Under the pieces are notes generated by a model. That model made no database searches and was not told the origin of the DNA. It saw only the letters and a program-made list of their open reading frames with translations. From an uncultured Eubacteriales bacterium (GTDB taxonomy: Bacteria > Bacillota > Clostridia > Lachnospirales > Lachnospiraceae), in the NCBI GenBank assembly GCA_900557175.1, contig USSL01000035.1, forward strand, positions 1-11,281: a DNA stretch of 11,281 nucleotides, in the 5' to 3' direction. The translations under genes were made by a program, and so were the position numbers. Numbering within the stretch: the stretch's first letter is position 1; each line of letters starts with the position of its first letter. This document shows, piece by piece, positions 1 through 11,281 of the stretch.

Positions 1-381
1 ATAAATACCACTCCGGATGGTCGCCTCGGTTCCAATCACGCCAATCTTTCCATTATGGGTTGCCTCGGCAGCCGTGCGCGCGCCCGCGTAGATAACCCCG
101 ATGATCGGGATATCCAATTCCTGTCTGACCGTCTCCAGTGCACACGCCGAGGCCGTGTTGCAGGCAATCACGATCGCCTTGACTCCCTGTGTTTTCAGAA
201 AACGGATGATCTGGCGGGAATAGCGCAGCACCGTATCCTGCGATTTGCTTCCATATGGAACGCGCGCCGTATCTCCAAAGTATACGATGCGCTCCTGCGG
301 CATCTGACGCATGATCTCACGGGCTACCGTCAGACCGCCGATGCCTGAATCAAAAACTCCGATCGGGGCATTTCTATCCAT
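1..381 (-). CDS. murI: Glutamate racemase, N-terminal 127 residues (cut by the window edge)
   Basis: MurI interconverts L- and D-glutamate in the cytoplasm and supplies D-glutamate for peptidoglycan. The reading frame starts at an ATG (379-381), preceded on the minus strand by an AAAGGAAGG ribosome binding site, and runs off the left edge in frame. Visible family motifs are the N-terminal PIGVFDSGIGGLTV with the Asp11-Ser12 pair, GDTARVPYG near residues 36-44, and VIACNTASA with the first catalytic cysteine at Cys74. The segment GKIGVIGTEATI follows at residues 111-122. The second catalytic cysteine, expected in the C-terminal half (family length about 260-280), lies outside the window. Base composition is high: 136 of the first 240 bases are G or C, against 33 of 120 in part of parA (841-960). 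The gene diverges from parA. Family assignment is secure; whether it truly adjoins parAB in this genome is less so. Confidence 0.93.
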   Translation of the reverse strand, partial: MDRNAPIGVFDSGIGGLTVAREIMRQMPQERIVYFGDTARVPYGSKSQDTVLRYSRQIIRFLKTQGVKAIVIACNTASACALETVRQELDIPIIGVIYAGARTAAEATHNGKIGVIGTEATIRSGIY

Positions 382-402
382 GTTTACCTTCCTTTCGGCA
401 AA

Positions 403-542
403 ATTCTTATGGTCATGTTTCCATTCTTTCCCGAACATCTGTGTATATCGAATCATATAACGTCCAAAAGTAGATTCTCTCACACTGTTTCAGGATTCTG
501 AAACATTTTTATTTATTTCCCCATTCTTATGGATATGTCCCC
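403..542. repeat. Pair of imperfect 20-bp direct repeats in the murI-parA gap
   Basis: ATTCTTATGGTCATGTTTCC at 403-422 and ATTCTTATGGATATGTCCCC at 523-542 match at 16 of 20 positions and lie 120 bp apart. The first copy is just upstream of the murI ribosome binding site (minus strand). The second overlaps the predicted parA -35 element. They flank the hairpin at 486-505. They could be operator sites for a shared regulator of the divergent genes, or chance. Confidence 0.4.
486..510 (+). terminator. Hairpin followed by a T tract, upstream of the parA promoter
   Basis: TGTTTCAG (486-493) and CTGAAACA (498-505) form a perfect 8-bp stem with a GATT loop. TTTTT and further T-rich sequence follow on the plus strand, so it has the form of an intrinsic terminator reading rightward. 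No plus-strand gene precedes it here, so its role as a terminator is unproven. It may insulate parAB, lie in the murI leader, or be a protein-binding palindrome; the outer arms match parS half-sites. Confidence 0.4.
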
Positions 543-558
543 AAAACTATGTTATAAT
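530..558 (+). promoter_or_regulatory. Likely sigma-A promoter of parAB
   Basis: A perfect TATAAT -10 hexamer at 553-558 is preceded, after a 17-bp spacer, by TGGATA at 530-535, a 4-of-6 match to TTGACA. Transcription would begin near 565, leaving a leader of about 125 nt before the parA start at 692. No better promoter is seen between murI and parA on this strand. Confidence 0.6.
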
Positions 559-632
559 TGTTTTTAAATGAACTGAAATTGCCATTTATTGAAGATTCAC
601 GGCATTTTCTGTTTTACATTAAACCATTACCG

Positions 633-670
633 ACATTAGCATGTGAATATTTGTTTTCCATAGCTGATGT
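633..670 (+). promoter_or_regulatory. Possible stem-loop in the parA leader
   Basis: ACATTAGC (633-640) can pair with GCTGATGT (663-670), giving 8 bp with one U-G pair in RNA. The stem can be extended by AUG/CAU past a bulged A. It ends 6 nt before the parA ribosome binding site (677-684). It could tune translation start, but it is short and has a 22-nt loop, so chance is a real alternative. Confidence 0.25.
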
Positions 671-691
671 AATATAGAAAGAGGCATTTTT

Positions 692-3510: not shown

Positions 3511-5394
3511 CTATTTTTGATGGCGAAGCTGTTCAAGATAAATAAGAAGTACTGACACATCCGCCGGTGAAACACCAGAAATTCTTGATGCCTGACCGAC
3601 AGAAGCCGGACGGATTGCCGAAAGCTTCTGTTTTGCCTCGATTCTAAGACCGTTAATTTCCATATAATCAATATCTTCCGGAAGCTTTTTCGACTCCAGT
3701 TTTTTAAACTGCTCCACCTGCTTCATCTGACGCGTAATATAACCGTCATATTTTATATTTATGTCAACCTGTTCAATAACATCTGCCGGAAGCGGCTGTC
3801 TGTCATGATCCAGCGGTGCCAGCGCCTCATAGCTTAATTCCGGCCGTCGTATAAGTTCTGCCAGAGAAACTGCTGTCTTTAACGGTGTGCTTTCGTACCG
3901 CTCAAGAAGTGCCTGAACCTCCTTATTGCCGCCAATATGAATATTGCTGACGCGCTCAATTTCTGCCGCAATCATTTTCTCTTTTTCCAAAAGCCGCTCA
4001 TAACGCGCTTTACTTATTAGTCCGACTTCATAACCAAGCTTCGTCAGACGCAAATCCGCGTTATCCTGACGGAGAAGCAAACGGTATTCTGCTCTCGATG
4101 TCATCATTCGATATGGCTCTTTCGTTTCTTTTGTTACCAAATCATCAATCAGTACCCCAATATAACCTTCCGAACGTTTGATAATCAACGGATCACGTCC
4201 AAGAAGCTTCATTGCCGCATTAATACCTGCCACAAGCCCCTGAGCCGCCGCCTCCTCATAGCCTGAACTTCCGTTAAACTGACCGCCGCTGAAAAGTCCG
4301 CTGACATTTTTAAATTCCAGAGACGATTTTAACTGGGTAGCCGGAATACAGTCGTATTCAATCGCATAAGCATTACGCACAATTTTCGCATTTTCGAGGC
4401 CGGCCACAGAACGGTACATTCTGTACTGGACATCCTCAGGCAAAGAACTCGACATGCCGCCGATATACATTTCATTCGTATAATTGCCCTCCGGTTCAAT
4501 AAATACCTGATGTCTTTCCTTGTCTGCAAATTTGACAACCTTATCTTCAATGGACGGACAATATCTCGGTCCGGTTCCCTCGATCACACCGGCATAAATC
4601 GGCGAGCGGTCAAGATTTTCACGTATAATCTCATGCGTTTCCTTGTTTGTATATGTGAGCCAGCATGATACCTGTGGCTTTTGTATATCTTCCGGATTTG
4701 TCGTAAATGAAAATGGCACAACGCGTTCATCGCCAAGCTGTTCTTCCATTTTCGAAAAGTCAATTGTCCGCCTGTCAATTCTTGCAGGTGTTCCCGTCTT
4801 AAAACGTACAAGCGAAATACCAAGTCTTGTAAGCGCCTCTGACAGACTGTTGGCCGCCTGAAGTCCGTTCGGTCCTGTATAAGTAATCGTCTCTCCGCAA
4901 AGACAGCGCGCCTTTAAATAAGTTCCTGTCGCAAGCACCGCCGCACGGCATGGATAAATACCGCCCGTATGTGTGACAACACCGCTGACCTGATTATTTT
5001 CTGTAAGAATATCAATAATCTCAGCCTGCTTTACCGTCAGATTTTCCTGATTTTCAAGCACGCGGCGCATTTCACGTGTATAATCAGCCTTATCCGCCTG
5101 GGCGCGAAGTGAATGTACGGCGGGTCCTTTAGATTTATTCAGCATTTTTGACTGAATAAAAGTCTTGTCAATCACCTTGCCCATCTCGCCGCCAAGCGCA
5201 TCAATCTCACGCACAAGATGTCCTTTAGAGCTGCCGCCGATATTCGGATTACACGGCATGAGGGCAATACTCTCCACACTCACCGTAAATACAATTGTCT
5301 TAAGTCCCAGTCTTGCACAGGCAAGCGCCGCTTCACAGCCGGCATGGCCCGCACCAATGACTGCAACGTCATATGCTTCATATGTGTATGACAT
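3511..5394 (-). CDS. mnmG: tRNA uridine-5-carboxymethylaminomethyl modification enzyme, FAD subunit MnmG
   Basis: MnmG (GidA) works with MnmE to install the cmnm5 or nm5 group on the wobble uridine of tRNAs reading split codon boxes. It uses FAD, NADH and methylenetetrahydrofolate. At 627 residues it has full normal length. The dinucleotide-binding [10 protein letters not shown] is at residues 14-23. The conserved [13 protein letters not shown] around Cys48 and [13 protein letters not shown] with Cys279 carry the two cysteines typical of the family. The C-terminal helical domain that contacts MnmE and tRNA ends with [17 protein letters not shown]. The ATG at 5394 follows a strong GGAGG site. 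It lies 30 bp after mnmE on the same strand, so the two partner subunits are almost certainly co-transcribed. Codon use is moderate in GC, unlike AT-rich parAB. Confidence 0.97.
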
Positions 5395-5424
5395 AAATTT
5401 CCTCCATTTTAGTTATCTGTACGC

Positions 5425-6801
5425 TTACTTGCCCATACAGAAATCACTGAATATTGTGTCGATTAAATCTTCACCGACAGACTCGCCGATAATACTTCCA
5501 AGCTGCTCGTAGCTATTCATCAAATCAATTGAGAAAAAGTCTTCCGGCATTCCGTCCTCAATACTTTTAAGCACAAGCTTAAGACTTTCCATCGCATCAG
5601 CAATCGCCGTTTTATGCCGGACATTTGTAATATAAATCTCATCATTAAATGAAATATCTCCGCCGAAAAACATATCTTTTAAAATCTGCTCAAAGGCATC
5701 GATGCCTTTTTCCTCTTTCGCTGAAATCTCAGCAACCGGCTTGTCAATATACTGTGCTATTCTATCCTTTGTAATGACTGTATTCAAGTCAATTTTATTA
5801 ATAAGAACAATCGCCTTTTTATCCTTAATAAGCTCGATAATCTGATGATCATTCTCATCAAGCTCTTTTGAACCGTCAACAACATAAATAACGAGATCTG
5901 CATCTTCTGCGAAGTTTTTTGCCTTATCAACACCGATTTTTTCGACAATATCTGTCGTATCTCTGATGCCTGCCGTATCCACAATGTTTAAAGGAATACC
6001 GTGGATATTAATAAACTCCTCCAGCGTATCTCTCGTTGTTCCTGCAATATCCGTCACAATCGCCCGCTCATCGCCGACAAGAATATTTAAAAGTGAAGAT
6101 TTTCCGGCATTCGGCTTTCCGACAATCACGGTCTTTATGCCTTCCTTCATCATGCGGCCGTTATCTGCCGAATCATAAAGCTTCTGAAGGTCTTTTAAAT
6201 CATTCTCAACCTTATTTTTAAGCTCATCGCCAAAATTGTCTGCATTAATATGCTCAGGATCATCAAGCGCTGCCTCGATAAAAGCAACACTGCCAATAAT
6301 ATGGCTTCTTATTTCTTTAATCTTCTGCTGTATATTACCTTTCAGCTGTCTCACTGAACCGGCAAGCGCCATCTCATTTTTTGCATTAATTACATCAATC
6401 ACAGCTTCAGCCTGAGACAGGTCAATACGGCCGTTTAAAAATGCCCGCTTTGTAAACTCTCCCGGTTCAGCCGGACGCGCCCCGTACTTTATGACAGTTT
6501 CCAAAAGCTTTTTCATCACAATAACGCCGCCGTGACAATCTATCTCGACAACATCCTCTTTTGTATAGCTGTTTGGCCCTCTCATAAGAAGCACAAGGAC
6601 TTCATCAATCAAATCGTCACCATCATAAATATAGCCGTAATGAATCGTATGGCTCGGTGCGTTTTGAAGACGCTTTTTATTTTGAGGACTTCTGTATATT
6701 TTATCAACAATTTCTATCGCTTCACTGCCGCTTAACCGTACCTTTCCGATACCTGAATTTGTCATTCCCGTTGATATTGCGGCGATTGTATCCTTAATCA
6801 T
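5425..6801 (-). CDS. mnmE: tRNA modification GTPase MnmE
   Basis: MnmE (TrmE/ThdF) is a dimerising GTPase and the partner of MnmG in wobble-uridine modification; its N-terminal domain binds the folate one-carbon donor. The 458-residue length is normal. The N-terminal domain (about 1-118) is followed by a helical domain interrupted by the G domain. The G motifs are GKPNAGKSS (228-236, G1), AGTTRDT (253-259, G2), DTAG (275-278, G3), NKID (335-338, G4) and ISAK (G5). The protein ends in CMGK (455-458), the conserved C-terminal cysteine motif. The ATG at 6801 follows GGAGGAAAGG. It heads the mnmE-mnmG-rsmG set and is separated from jag by a terminator and a long hairpin, so it needs its own promoter or read-through. 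I could not identify a good promoter in the 113-bp gap. Confidence 0.97.
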   Translation of the reverse strand: MIKDTIAAISTGMTNSGIGKVRLSGSEAIEIVDKIYRSPQNKKRLQNAPSHTIHYGYIYDGDDLIDEVLVLLMRGPNSYTKEDVVEIDCHGGVIVMKKLLETVIKYGARPAEPGEFTKRAFLNGRIDLSQAEAVIDVINAKNEMALAGSVRQLKGNIQQKIKEIRSHIIGSVAFIEAALDDPEHINADNFGDELKNKVENDLKDLQKLYDSADNGRMMKEGIKTVIVGKPNAGKSSLLNILVGDERAIVTDIAGTTRDTLEEFINIHGIPLNIVDTAGIRDTTDIVEKIGVDKAKNFAEDADLVIYVVDGSKELDENDHQIIELIKDKKAIVLINKIDLNTVITKDRIAQYIDKPVAEISAKEEKGIDAFEQILKDMFFGGDISFNDEIYITNVRHKTAIADAMESLKLVLKSIEDGMPEDFFSIDLMNSYEQLGSIIGESVGEDLIDTIFSDFCMGK

Positions 6802-6832
6802 GGCCTTTCCTCCTCATTTTTCATACTTTTGC

Positions 6833-6873
6833 GATATACACAGTACACGATATGATCATACACTCTGTATATC
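6833..6873 (-). promoter_or_regulatory. Long hairpin in the mnmE leader
   Basis: Read on the minus strand, this 41-nt element folds into a 19-bp stem with a 3-nt CAU loop. There is one G-G mismatch and three G-U pairs; the outer 8 bp (GATATACA/TGTATATC) are perfect. On the plus strand the G-U pairs become C-A mismatches, so the fold favours RNA from the mnmE direction. It begins 2 nt after the jag terminator T tract and ends 31 nt before the mnmE start. No T tract follows it, so it is not itself a terminator. A central TGATCA palindrome would also suit a protein-binding site. Confidence 0.6.
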
Positions 6874-6875
6874 AC

Positions 6876-6906
6876 AAAAACCCCCATCTTGCTTAAAAGA
6901 CGGGGG
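6876..6906 (-). terminator. Strong intrinsic terminator after jag
   Basis: On the minus strand, CCCCCGTCTT and AAGATGGGGG pair over 10 bp (one G-U pair) around the loop TTAAGC, followed directly by TTTTT. It begins 8 bp after the jag stop codon (6915-6917). It marks the end of the rnpA-yidD-yidC-jag transcript and separates it from mnmE. Confidence 0.93.
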
Positions 6907-6914
6907 CTTCAATA

Positions 6915-7592
6915 TTACTGAACATTTTCCGAATGATAACCGTTCTTTCTGTAGTCTCTGTTATGACGCTTTAATGTTACAACAACCTTGCGGTAAGGCT
7001 CATCGCCCTCGCTGTGTGTTTCAACGTATTTGTCATTCTGAAGCGCTGAATGAATAATACGGCGTTCATACGGATTCATCGGTTCAAGAGATATCGGTCT
7101 GCGGCTGCGCTTTACCTTATAAGCAATATTTCTTGCCAATGTTTCGAGCGTTTCTTTTCTGCGCTCTCTGTAATTTTCAGTATCAATCTTTACACGGACA
7201 TACGCATCGCTTTCCTTATTCACGACAAGGCTTATAATATATTGAAGGGAATCTAATGTCTGACCACGTTTTCCTATCAATACACCCATCTCGTCACCGG
7301 AAAAATTAATATCCATATTACGGTTTTCTTCATCATACTGAATTTCTGCTTTAACATCAAGCTTCATTGCCTTAAATAAGTCGTTAAGAAACTCATATGT
7401 AAAGTCAACCAAATTAAACTTTTTACGGACACGGATCACTGCATCTGTTTTACCGATAAAACCTAAAAATCCGGCGCTGCCCTTTTCAATCACTTCATAT
7501 TCTATCTTATCACTTGTTGTTTCAAGCTTTAATAATGCTGCTGTAATCGCATCATCTACAGTTTTGGCACTGATTTCAATATATTCGCTCAT
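6915..7592 (-). CDS. jag: RNA-binding protein Jag/KhpB (Jag-N, KH and R3H domains)
   Basis: Jag (KhpB, also called EloR or SpoIIIJ-associated protein) is a cytoplasmic RNA-binding protein linked to cell elongation and division in Firmicutes; with KhpA it binds many transcripts in streptococci and clostridia. The 225-residue protein shows all three parts. A Jag-N domain is at about 1-55 with the loop GSAGFLGFIGK. A KH domain at about 65-137 has the RNA-binding GKRG loop at 107-110. An R3H domain at about 140-210 contains Arg177-x3-His181 in PYERRIIH. Start is the ATG at 7592 behind GGGAGG. It sits 25 bp after yidC, the usual neighbour, and is followed at once by a strong terminator. The C-terminal tail (NRDYRKNGYHSENVQ) is a short species-specific extension. 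Confidence 0.95.
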   Translation of the reverse strand: MSEYIEISAKTVDDAITAALLKLETTSDKIEYEVIEKGSAGFLGFIGKTDAVIRVRKKFNLVDFTYEFLNDLFKAMKLDVKAEIQYDEENRNMDINFSGDEMGVLIGKRGQTLDSLQYIISLVVNKESDAYVRVKIDTENYRERRKETLETLARNIAYKVKRSRRPISLEPMNPYERRIIHSALQNDKYVETHSEGDEPYRKVVVTLKRHNRDYRKNGYHSENVQ

Positions 7593-7617
7593 TTTATTGA
7601 AAACCTCCCGACCACTA

Positions 7618-8952
7618 TCACTTTTTGTTCTTATTGTTATAATTTTTATCTTTCAACATATTAGCGATATTGGCAATATTTGCATTTTCAGGCTCTCCCT
7701 TTTTGCCCTTCTTATGCTTACTGTTACTATCCTCATTGGAAGATACCGACGGCTGATTCACCTTCGCAGGACTTTGCTTTTTATTATCCACTGCACTGCC
7801 AAGTTTCTCTGTGGAAGTATTTGCAATCTCTTTAATTGATTTGCGTTTCTGAACTTCTTCAAAATTCTTTGTGCTCATCTTTGCATATTCTTCAAACTTA
7901 GACGGCTTATCGCCACGCTTCTCAGCCTTCTTCTTTGCTTTCGCCTTATTTTCCTCAATAATCTTATCAAGACCTTTTTTATCAATCATCTTGTTAGCTA
8001 AAACCATCGTAATTGTTCTGAATACCGCACTGGCAATCCAGTAAATACCAATACCTACCTGGAAAGAGAAACCGATGAATACTGAGAATAACGGCATCAT
8101 GACATTCATCATCTTCATAGAACTTGCCATAGGGTTTTCATCACTATTTGCCTGAGGCTGTGATGCCTGTGAAATCTTCACGCTGGCATACTGCGTTACA
8201 CCGGAAAGGATTGGAATCAATGCACCCGGCCACCATCCTGCTGCCGTTGGTGTATTGGCAATATTTAAACCGCCGATAAATGAGTTGACATGCTCAATCT
8301 CCGGTGTATAAGCTGCAATGGCATTGACAACATCCGGCGCTGCAGAAAATGCGTCCGAAACAGCCGGAAAATCTGTAAACCTTAAATTATATAAAAAGTC
8401 TACAATTTTATTCATATTTGAAAAATCAAAGCTTGTTACTCTGACACCAAGGTCGTTAATCAATCCGGTAACAATCTCACCGCCGTTTGATACTCTGCTG
8501 ATTGGCTCTGCAATCTGCATGTATAAATCATTCAGTGAATTTACATATGCAGGCACTGCATAAATAACCTGATACAATGCAAACAAAATCGGAAGCTGAA
8601 TCAACATATAAAGACAGCCGCCTGTCGGGCTTGAGCCATATTTCTGATAAACTGCTGATGTTTCAGCCTGCATTCTCCTTACTGAAACCTCATCTCTCTT
8701 GCCCTTATATTTTGCCTGAATCTTTTGGAGTTCAGGGTTCATCACTGCCATCATCTTAGATGACTTCTGCTGCTTGATTGTCAACGGAAGCAAAAGAAGA
8801 TTGACAATTAATGTAAACAGAATAATTGCCAAACCGATATTAGGAATACCAATCATCTCAAGAAATTCATAAATCGCATTAATAATGAATCCGAGAACCG
8901 TGGCAAAAGGTCCTAATATTCCGCCGACCTTCGTCAATACGAGAAACTCCAC
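7618..8952 (-). CDS. yidC: Membrane protein insertase YidC/Oxa1 with a long basic C-terminal tail
   Basis: YidC inserts membrane proteins alone or with SecYEG. The 444-residue protein has a hydrophobic N-terminal stretch (about 11-33) without a lipobox cysteine. Likely transmembrane helices are near 36-57, 112-135, 240-258, 283-299 and 302-320. The hydrophilic cytoplasmic loop near 58-108 contains LTIKQQKSSKMM and MNPELQKIQAKYK, strong YidC signatures. The external loop (about 136-239) is long for a Gram-positive YidC. The tail after 321 is about 120 residues, rich in Lys, fitting ribosome binding. At the position of the groove arginine (E. coli IVRGIMYPL) this protein has Asn51 in IVNLLLLPL. 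The start is a GTG (8950-8952) 7 nt after AGGAGG. It follows yidD by 16 bp. Confidence 0.95.
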   Translation of the reverse strand: MEFLVLTKVGGILGPFATVLGFIINAIYEFLEMIGIPNIGLAIILFTLIVNLLLLPLTIKQQKSSKMMAVMNPELQKIQAKYKGKRDEVSVRRMQAETSAVYQKYGSSPTGGCLYMLIQLPILFALYQVIYAVPAYVNSLNDLYMQIAEPISRVSNGGEIVTGLINDLGVRVTSFDFSNMNKIVDFLYNLRFTDFPAVSDAFSAAPDVVNAIAAYTPEIEHVNSFIGGLNIANTPTAAGWWPGALIPILSGVTQYASVKISQASQPQANSDENPMASSMKMMNVMMPLFSVFIGFSFQVGIGIYWIASAVFRTITMVLANKMIDKKGLDKIIEENKAKAKKKAEKRGDKPSKFEEYAKMSTKNFEEVQKRKSIKEIANTSTEKLGSAVDNKKQSPAKVNQPSVSSNEDSNSKHKKGKKGEPENANIANIANMLKDKNYNNKNKK

Positions 8953-8968
8953 CGTGCTACCTCCTTAT

Positions 8969-9187
8969 TTACGGCACCGGGTCATAACCGCCCTTTGCGA
9001 ACGGATGACACCTTAATATTCTTTTTATTGCGAGAAAACCTCCCTTAAAAGGTCCATACTTTTCAATAGCTTCGATTGCGTATTGAGAACATGTGGGTAT
9101 ATAAATGCAGTGAAAACGCTTCATCGGCGATATATACTTCCGATAAAAGCGTATCATGGCAAGCATTATTTTCTTCAAAATATTCAT
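8969..9187 (-). CDS. yidD: Membrane protein insertion efficiency factor YidD
   Basis: YidD is a small, membrane-associated protein that aids YidC-dependent insertion in E. coli; its exact mechanism is not settled. The 72-residue protein has the family pattern in order. An amphipathic basic N-terminus ([18 protein letters not shown]) is followed by [19 protein letters not shown], then [24 protein letters not shown] with its conserved cysteine-histidine-proline. The ATG at 9187 begins 2 bp after the rnpA stop codon, and no strong ribosome binding site is seen, so it probably depends on translational coupling to rnpA. It precedes yidC by 16 bp, consistent with a joint function. Confidence 0.95.
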
Positions 9188-9189
9188 AC

Positions 9190-9534
9190 TTATCCCATCT
9201 TTTCTGTAATATGATGAAGACCGGCAAGGTGCATCAGCGCACTCTCTATGTCATGATAACCGGCTTCCTTTGCTGTTACTCGTGCAATAACGACTATATC
9301 TAGGCCATGAAAAAATCTCTGCTCATTCAGTCTGTAGCTTTCTCTGACCAAACGAGTAATTCTGTGTCTGACGACACTATTACCAACTTTCTTACTGACA
9401 GATATCCCCAAATGGTTGCTGTTCGTTTGATTTTCCAATACATACATGACAAGATATCTGTTCGCATACGATTTGCCTTTTTTATAAACAAGGCCAAAAT
9501 CCCTGTTCTTTTTCAATGAGTCTGAAAAATCCAT
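9190..9534 (-). CDS. rnpA: Ribonuclease P protein component
   Basis: RnpA binds the RNase P RNA and helps recognise the 5' leader of precursor tRNAs. The 114-residue length is normal. The N-terminal [21 protein letters not shown] and the central [17 protein letters not shown] are family hallmarks. In the so-called RNR motif the central asparagine is replaced by histidine (Arg56-His57-Arg58), followed by [10 protein letters not shown]. The ATG (9532-9534) lies behind a purine-rich AAGGAAAAGG site. The gap to rpmH (9535-9715) holds a terminator at its far end. A TATAAT at 9613-9618 on this strand could be a -10 element, but its -35 region (CACTGT) is poor. So rnpA is probably expressed by read-through from rpmH, perhaps with help from a weak internal promoter. 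Confidence 0.95.
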
Positions 9535-9690
9535 AATCTTCCTTTTCCTTAATTAACGGAGCTTACTGTTGTCAAAGCCCCCAGACATTTCCCAACTACA
9601 AGTTTCTTCTTTATTATATATAGAAGCAATATTAAACAGTGCCATCATTGATTACTTTCTCGGAAACGTTCTGTTTTCGTTATCTTTATA

Positions 9691-9717
9691 AAGAAAAAGG
9701 TCACAAATATGCGACCT
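9691..9717 (-). terminator. Intrinsic terminator overlapping the rpmH stop codon
   Basis: On the minus strand AGGTCGC and GTGACCT form a 7-bp stem (one G-U pair) around the loop ATATTT, followed by TTTTTCTT. The 5' arm begins within the rpmH TAG stop (9716-9718), so terminating ribosomes cover it. The stem is modest, suggesting partial termination that would make L34 more abundant than RnpA. Confidence 0.75.
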
Positions 9718-9850
9718 AAGCTGATAATCTCTTTCTTCCTTTAGCTCTCCTTGCAGCTAAAACTTTTCTGCCGTTAGCTGTTCTCATTCTCTTTCTGAAA
9801 CCATGCTCTTTAGCTCTCTGTCTCTTTTTAGGCTGGAATGTCATCTTCAT
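9716..9850 (-). CDS. rpmH: 50S ribosomal protein L34
   Basis: L34 is a small, very basic protein of the large ribosomal subunit and is almost always encoded beside rnpA and the origin. The frame gives exactly 44 residues, the standard length: [20 protein letters not shown] first, then [20 protein letters not shown] and the C-terminal RLSA. These match the family throughout ([14 protein letters not shown] and [14 protein letters not shown]). The ATG at 9850 is 7 nt after a perfect AAGGAGGTG ribosome binding site (9858-9866); a second in-frame ATG at codon 3 is too far from it. A strong sigma-A promoter lies about 100 bp upstream. Confidence 0.97.
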
Positions 9851-9874
9851 CTGTATGCACCTCCTTCTTTTTGG

Positions 9875-9926
9875 AAATAGCACTGTCTAAATCCTGCAGT
9901 TTCCCACAAACAAAATAATGCTATTT
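9875..9926 (-). promoter_or_regulatory. Possible structured leader of rpmH
   Basis: AAATAGCA (9875-9882) and TGCTATTT (9919-9926) are perfect 8-bp complements enclosing 36 nt. A smaller ACTG/CAGT pairing (9882-9885 with 9897-9900) is possible inside as an alternative. The element lies between the predicted transcription start (near 9942) and the ribosome binding site. It could be a leader stem-loop controlling L34 synthesis; I recognise no known ribosomal protein leader motif. Confidence 0.3.
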
Positions 9927-9948
9927 TATTAGATAAAATATCTACTCT

Positions 9949-9977
9949 ATTATATTAATTTGTCCCCGCTTCGTCAA
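9949..9977 (-). promoter_or_regulatory. Sigma-A promoter of the rpmH-rnpA operon
   Basis: On the minus strand TTGACG (9972-9977) and TATAAT (9949-9954) are separated by exactly 17 bp, an 11-of-12 match to the sigma-A consensus. Transcription would start near 9942, giving an rpmH leader of about 90 nt. It fires away from the DnaA boxes. Confidence 0.9.
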
Positions 9978-10076
9978 GTGATTTTATAAAATTTATAAAA
10001 GAATTATTCATGCGGCAGCTCAAAAGAAGTATGTATTTTATGATATGAGCCTGTGAAAGAGTTTCCCACAAAAAAG

Positions 10077-10126
10077 TTATCCACAAAGCCATAATTTACA
10101 TAACTTTATCCACATTTTGTGGATAA
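10077..10126. promoter_or_regulatory. Cluster of three perfect DnaA boxes
   Basis: TTATCCACA occurs on the plus strand at 10077-10085 and 10106-10114, and on the minus strand at 10118-10126 (TGTGGATAA). All three match the consensus fully. The last two face each other with 3 bp between them. These are the strongest DnaA binding sites in the window. Confidence 0.95.
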
Positions 10127-10292
10127 CTTGTGTATAACTTGCGGAAAACCTGTTTATAACTTTTGGAAATTCAACATTATTCCCTAAAAAGTGTTGATTT
10201 TTCAAGGTTTTGTCGTTTGTTGATATTTGGGATAAAATTTTTGACTTATCCCCCAAGATTAAAATGGAAACATTTTATGTAAATTATTATTG

Positions 10293-10301
10293 TTATCCAC
10301 A
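10293..10301 (+). promoter_or_regulatory. Perfect DnaA box near the dnaA promoter
   Basis: TTATCCACA at 10293-10301, plus strand, is a full consensus match. It stands apart from the main cluster, about 60 bp upstream of the predicted dnaA -35 element, so it may serve both origin assembly and autoregulation of dnaA. Confidence 0.93.
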
Positions 10302-10359
10302 TTTATCACGCCGAAAAAAGTTTTTTCAACAAAACAGCGATTTTGTTTACATTATTGCA

Positions 10360-10388
10360 TTGTAAAAAAACCGTTTTTGTTATAGAAT
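10360..10388 (+). promoter_or_regulatory. Likely sigma-A promoter of dnaA
   Basis: TTGTAA (10360-10365, 4 of 6) and TAGAAT (10383-10388, 5 of 6) are separated by 17 bp. Transcription would begin near 10395, about 28 nt before the dnaA start. It is the best promoter match in the stretch before dnaA. Confidence 0.55.
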
Positions 10389-10422
10389 AGATAATAATAA
10401 ACTTATAATTAGGGGTATTGTG

Positions 10423-11229
10423 ATGATAAATGTAATTAAAGAAAAATGGGATGAGATTCTCGAACTTATGAAAATAGAACATGACATCTCCGACGCCGCT
10501 TTTAAAACATGGGTAAAAGCACTTTACGTCCACTCTGTCAGAGGCAGTAAGGTTTATGTAACCATCAAAGATGAGCTGGCAACAGGGATTGATTATGTAA
10601 TCAAAAAATACAAAATTCCACTTCAGGTTGCGATATGTGAAGTATTGGACTGCCAGCTTGATGTGGATATCGTAGCGCCGGATGCCATTGCGGAGATGGT
10701 GCCGGATGCCAGAGAAACAAAGGCTGCGCCTCAGGCGAAGGCCAACCTTATTAATACGAATCTCAATCCCCGCTACACTTTCGACACCTTCGTTGTCGGA
10801 AAAAATAATGAGCTGGCGCATGCTACAGCGCTTGCAGTTGCGGAAGATCCCGGTATTTACGGCAACCCTCTGTTTATATACGGCGGTGTTGGTCTTGGAA
10901 AGACGCATCTTATGCATTCCATCGCCCACTATGTTTTGCAGCGCCGCGCAAACGCCCGTATTTTATATGTAACTTCCGAAGAATTTACAAACGAGCTGAT
11001 TACAGCGATCCGTACAAATCATAATGAAGAATTTAGAAATAAATATAGAAATCTGGACATGCTCTTAATAGATGATATCCAGTTTATCGTCGGACGTGAG
11101 AGTACGCAGGAAGAATTTTTCCATACATTCAACACGCTCTATGCAGCCAAAAAGCAGATTGTTATTTCATCAGATAAACCGCCGAAGGATATTGAAAACC
11201 TTGAAGACAGACTTATTTCAAGATTTAAA
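10423..11229 (+). CDS. dnaA: Chromosomal replication initiator DnaA, first 269 residues (truncated by adapter)
   Basis: DnaA is the AAA+ ATPase that binds oriC boxes and opens the duplex. I place the start at ATG 10423, 6 nt after AGGGGT (10411-10416); an in-frame GTG at 10420 would lie only 3 nt from it. Domain I (about 1-80) and a short linker (about 81-112) lead into the AAA+ domain, which opens with [19 protein letters not shown]. Walker A GGVGLGKT is at 154-161, Walker B LLIDDIQ at 214-220 and sensor 1 ISSDKPP at 249-255. Genomic sequence ends after DRLISRFK, where the family normally continues with a WGL-type segment. The frame runs on into adapter to a false stop at 11269-11271. The rest of the AAA+ domain and the DNA-binding domain IV, about 180 residues, are missing. 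This is an assembly artefact, not a pseudogene. Confidence 0.96.
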
Positions 11230-11281
11230 AGATCGGAAGAGCACACGTCTGAACTCCAGTCACTGGAATAATCTCGTATGC
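11230..11281 (+). other. Illumina TruSeq-type adapter left on the contig end (not genomic)
   Basis: From 11230 the sequence is A-GATCGGAAGAGCACACGTC and continues as the standard TruSeq index adapter to GTCAC at 11259-11263. TGGAATA (11264-11270) sits in the index position, and ATCTCGTATGC (11271-11281) is the constant sequence after the index. The A at 11230 can be the A-tail of the library fragment, so true genomic DNA most likely ends at 11229. None of these bases should be annotated biologically. Confidence 0.98.

Follow-up and report, generated by a model that had tools for sequence, protein, structure and literature searches.

The indices of TruSeq adapters have 6 or 8 nt. A full adapter of the Illumina TruSeq type, with two constant parts flanking a 6-nt index, is printed in PMC7327805, and both constant parts occur in 115 papers of the literature searched. 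Seven-nucleotide designs appear in two further sources: in a sedimentary ancient-DNA study the P7 primer has seven Ns ahead of GTGACTGGAG (PMC10039020), and a kakapo genomics study prints a seven-N P7 primer and cites Meyer and Kircher (PMC9903828).

We compared these designs with the right end of the window, by which we mean the whole stretch of DNA analysed (11,281 nt). The tail of the window shares both constant parts, their order and their direction with the TruSeq-type i7 adapter, and differs from it in having a 7-nt slot where PMC7327805 prints 6 nt. The Meyer-Kircher-type P7 indexing primer (PMC10039020 and PMC9903828) matches the window in its flanks (read as the reverse complement) and in its 7-nt slot. 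The tail is almost certainly synthetic, the product of an untrimmed read-through from an insert end at 11229 into the i7 adapter that the assembler then followed, and the finding is an ordinary and technical one.

The 52-base tail and its index slot

The tail occupies positions 11230–11281 (52 bases), where we checked its presence, and ends on the last base of the window; that the window end is also the contig end is taken from the first-pass annotation. That annotation had described a terminal 52-base adapter consisting of a constant part, seven nucleotides and a second constant part in the right order, and had proposed aligning it to the adapter set. The alignment bears the description out base for base: the i7 constant part (AGATCGGAAGAGC...CAGTCAC) has 34/34 identities at 11230–11263, and positions 11271–11281 (ATCTCGTATGC) reproduce 11/11 bases of the next constant part, with the window edge directly after (Table 1). 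The tail points outward at the window end and reads, in order, insert, A, adapter, index and P7 side, followed by nothing.

Table 1. Features at the right end of the window
Feature	Position	Strand	Basis
Authentic 5′ portion of dnaA (270 codons in the chosen frame), cut short where the contig ends	10420..11229	+	PF00308; P0001 match
Spurious C-terminal peptide and stop, dnaA frame running into the adapter	11230..11271	+	ORF 10420–11271; P0138 peptide core
i7 adapter constant part; first base A probably the A-tail base	11230..11263	+	34/34 identities
7-nt index (barcode) slot TGGAATA	11264..11270	+	Between both constant parts
P7-side constant part, beginning only, cut by the window end	11271..11281	+	11/11 bases of ATCTCGTATGC

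The 12-mer GATCGGAAGAGC from the adapter core occurs once in the window, with 0 mismatches; because a search allowing ≤2 mismatches expects 0.86 matches by chance, this 12-mer on its own would be a weak test. Other adapters (i5, Nextera, P5, P7, and BGI), compared on both strands, gave no full-length match in the window, the best partial match being 18/24. Rfam gave 0 matches at the gathering threshold.

Base 11230 is A. The nearest relative found, G137 (locus L225), a member of the G001 family (G001 being the source of the Blautia locus L001), has G at this first position past the junction, and the A is therefore best explained as the base that A-tailing adds when a library is prepared.

The first-pass annotation had named the tail a TruSeq index adapter. 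The Illumina i7 flanks stand, whereas the TruSeq index length does not: the slot TGGAATA has 7 nt, not 6 or 8, and thus the length of the Meyer-Kircher type. "Illumina i7 adapter with a 7-nt index slot" is accordingly the more exact name. Under a slot reading rule that tolerates one or two mismatches, slots were readable in 84 of the 121 IMG/VR adapter matches listed (6 nt in 60, 8 nt in 23, and 5 nt in 1) and in 9 of the 20 adapter copies read in genomes (all 8 nt). A 7-nt slot is unusual, being found in 0/93 of these readable comparison tails (84 IMG/VR among the matches listed and 9 from genomes). Alternatively, a 6- or 8-nt index that carries a single-base error may account for the length.

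By its length, the slot fits the printed seven-N P7 primer design. If it marked a home-made library of the Meyer-Kircher type, the DNA could come from degraded or ancient material whose inserts were very short, and the contig could be a piece of the genome of an old gut bacterium. A seven-N P7 primer is reportedly also listed in a CRISPR-screen study (PMC7994904). The design is thus not specific to ancient DNA, given its use in both kakapo and CRISPR-screen work, and because an unrelated third study also prints the primer we consider the home-made or ancient library improbable. The index TGGAATA in adapter context was not found in viral_contigs and, in either orientation, had no match in the literature searched; the index paired with "Meyer and Kircher" likewise had none there.

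The end of dnaA

The reading frame that meets the tail encodes a DnaA with a Bac_DnaA domain (PF00308, E = 1.3e-69, Pfam). Among the best 120 of 7575 matches in a protein search, the closest DnaA is P0001 (452 aa; 96% identity over 270 aa), followed by P0002 at 91%, whose source is named Candidatus Scybalocola faecipullorum and which is encoded, letter for letter, by L225 of G137. A comparison of dnaA with plasmids returned 8 records at 60–80% identity.

The DNA of G137 aligns to window positions 3514–11229 at 76%, and the alignment ends at 11229. The first-pass annotation had placed a break at 11229/11230 and had named, as the contrary observation, a relative in which the sequence runs on as continuous chromosomal DNA. 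In-register identity to G137 is 234/280 bases in 10950–11229 and 8/52 in 11230–11281, so the relative's dnaA departs from the window exactly at that step; beyond it, the relative's gene continues to its stop and ends normally. The 12-mer from the adapter core does not occur anywhere in G137. The tail is not genomic, and nothing biological is left at 11230–11281.

The encoded proteins agree with the DNA on this break. We aligned 168 DnaA-family proteins, drawn from overlapping sets (the top 120 out of 7575 matches and the top 120 out of 165), to the 270 residues of the window. At the second position after the junction, 168/168 of them carry glycine. The first position holds A (69 proteins), V (51), N (25), W (15), S (6), C (1) or M (1). 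In the window these two positions are R and then S. A protein search with the 40 residues 244–283 returned 165 matches, and none of the best 120 aligns over more than 73% of that query. The tail peptide had no match in the literature searched, and among the papers listed for adapter contamination of assemblies none was on the subject.

The dnaA frame continues for 13 codons inside the tail, giving an ORF of 10420–11271, as could be expected if the end were real genomic DNA, either inserted sequence or a diverged DnaA C-terminus with a likeness to the adapter. Against this stand the chance of meeting the 45 constant bases, about 3e-28 per single position given the window's base composition, the different continuation in G137 and in all 168 fetched proteins, and the 12-mer adapter core, found in 0/80 dnaA-bearing relative loci (L001–L080). 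The probability that the tail is genuine chromosomal sequence is very small. The cut-off dnaA and the odd protein tail are artefacts.

Under the read-through explanation, the dnaA region would have supplied a library insert, probably a short one, ending at 11229. A read would then have run off this insert and on into the i7 adapter, through the A-tail base, the constant part, the 7-nt index and the P7-side constant part, and, presumably left untrimmed, would have led the assembler to extend the contig by 52 bases. Incomplete read trimming, as the first-pass annotation had supposed, would thus lie behind the tail, and few reads and low coverage would be expected behind the last bases. The adapter may have stopped the contig, or may sit on an end that was present anyway. 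In practical terms, the end needs cutting back to 11229 before annotation and sister contigs need screening; the false C-terminus that the truncated DnaA receives from the tail matters for data hygiene only.

Adapter cores in other sequences

A second DnaA, P0138 (431 aa), came up only when the fetched proteins were searched for the peptide as a string: its residues 419–431 are an adapter-derived peptide in the same frame as in the window. The tail of P0138 begins at residue 419, whereas the window's last genuine residue corresponds to residue 275 of P0138, so that the junction in P0138 lies 143 residues further along than in the window. P0138 shares the core of the tail peptide with the window and differs in its last residues (QR versus LE), a difference that probably reflects a different index. 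The same peptide at another place in a second DnaA is the pattern that contamination would give. Adapter-derived peptides thus reach public protein collections, P0138 being one example.

We also searched for a 33-base adapter core in IMG/VR, where it occurs on at least 120 stretches carrying 121 core matches, a sample that is neither complete nor random. At most 250 bases follow the core in 120/121 of the matches listed, and at most 60 in 94/121, whereas at most 250 bases precede it in only 1/121; the base directly before the core is A in 116/121. Ends are here the ends of the stretch: 80 stretches among the matches listed comprise, judged by length, 63 whole contigs and 17 parts. The exactly reversed core had 0 matches in viral_contigs.

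Among the 397 genomes of the G001 family, the core is present in 8, at 46 places in total, and the reversed control in 0/397. In the 20 genome places that were read, at most 18 bases follow the core in 18, with 68 and 383 bases in the other two, and A precedes the core in 20/20. A single genome, G386, holds 36 copies. All 10 copies read in it (L204, L210, L212, and L214–L220) lie at stretch ends; in 8 of these the core is followed by 8 or more bases, all starting with one identical 8-nt index, and the remaining 2, with 1 and 2 bases after the core, agree as far as they go. G386 is thus an analogue of what the first-pass annotation predicts for the window's own assembly, in which other contigs may carry the same tail.

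Some copies do not sit at stretch ends and count against simple read-through as the general explanation, namely L093 in IMG/VR, the exception with 1257 bases after the core, and the genome copy L201, with 383. Such long non-adapter sequence after the core, together with the IMG/VR contig L154, which has the core at both ends, is what an adapter chimera could produce. In such a chimera the adapter has been joined to a broken molecule, or to a further adapter as a dimer or concatemer, and is then sequenced as if it were insert. The window itself has the layout of the plain case, with insert, A, adapter, index and P7 side in the read-through direction and nothing after, and for its tail a chimera is highly improbable; read-through from the insert end at 11229 is the reading we retain.

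As an observation on L201 in its own right, the core lies at positions 1501–1533 of that stretch and is followed by 383 bases unlike an index and P7 side, so that the adapter is apparently inside the contig.

Gene content of the remaining window

Pfam searches on the ten translated ORFs, to which we assigned gene names, give from left to right part of murI (−), parA (+), parB (+), rsmG (−), mnmG (−), mnmE (−), jag (−), yidC (−), rnpA (−), and dnaA (+). murI, parAB, rsmG, mnmG, mnmE, jag, yidC, rnpA, and dnaA are the usual gene set around the Firmicutes origin.

The left end of the window (1–690) holds the part of murI, and its first 500 bases have 51% GC compared to 30–46% in the other 500-base bins. 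The best murI match in G137 lies on contig C8 and dnaA on C20, and similarity to the parAB region of G137 begins only at window position 678. The left end may be a rearrangement or a second technical join.

parA and parB (692–2484) are co-directional with dnaA both in the window and in G137 (L225). Among 26 relative stretches examined, 17 are without parA in the stretch, and parA runs opposite to that direction in 9/9 of those having it; parAB therefore looks inverted in the lineage of the window and G137.
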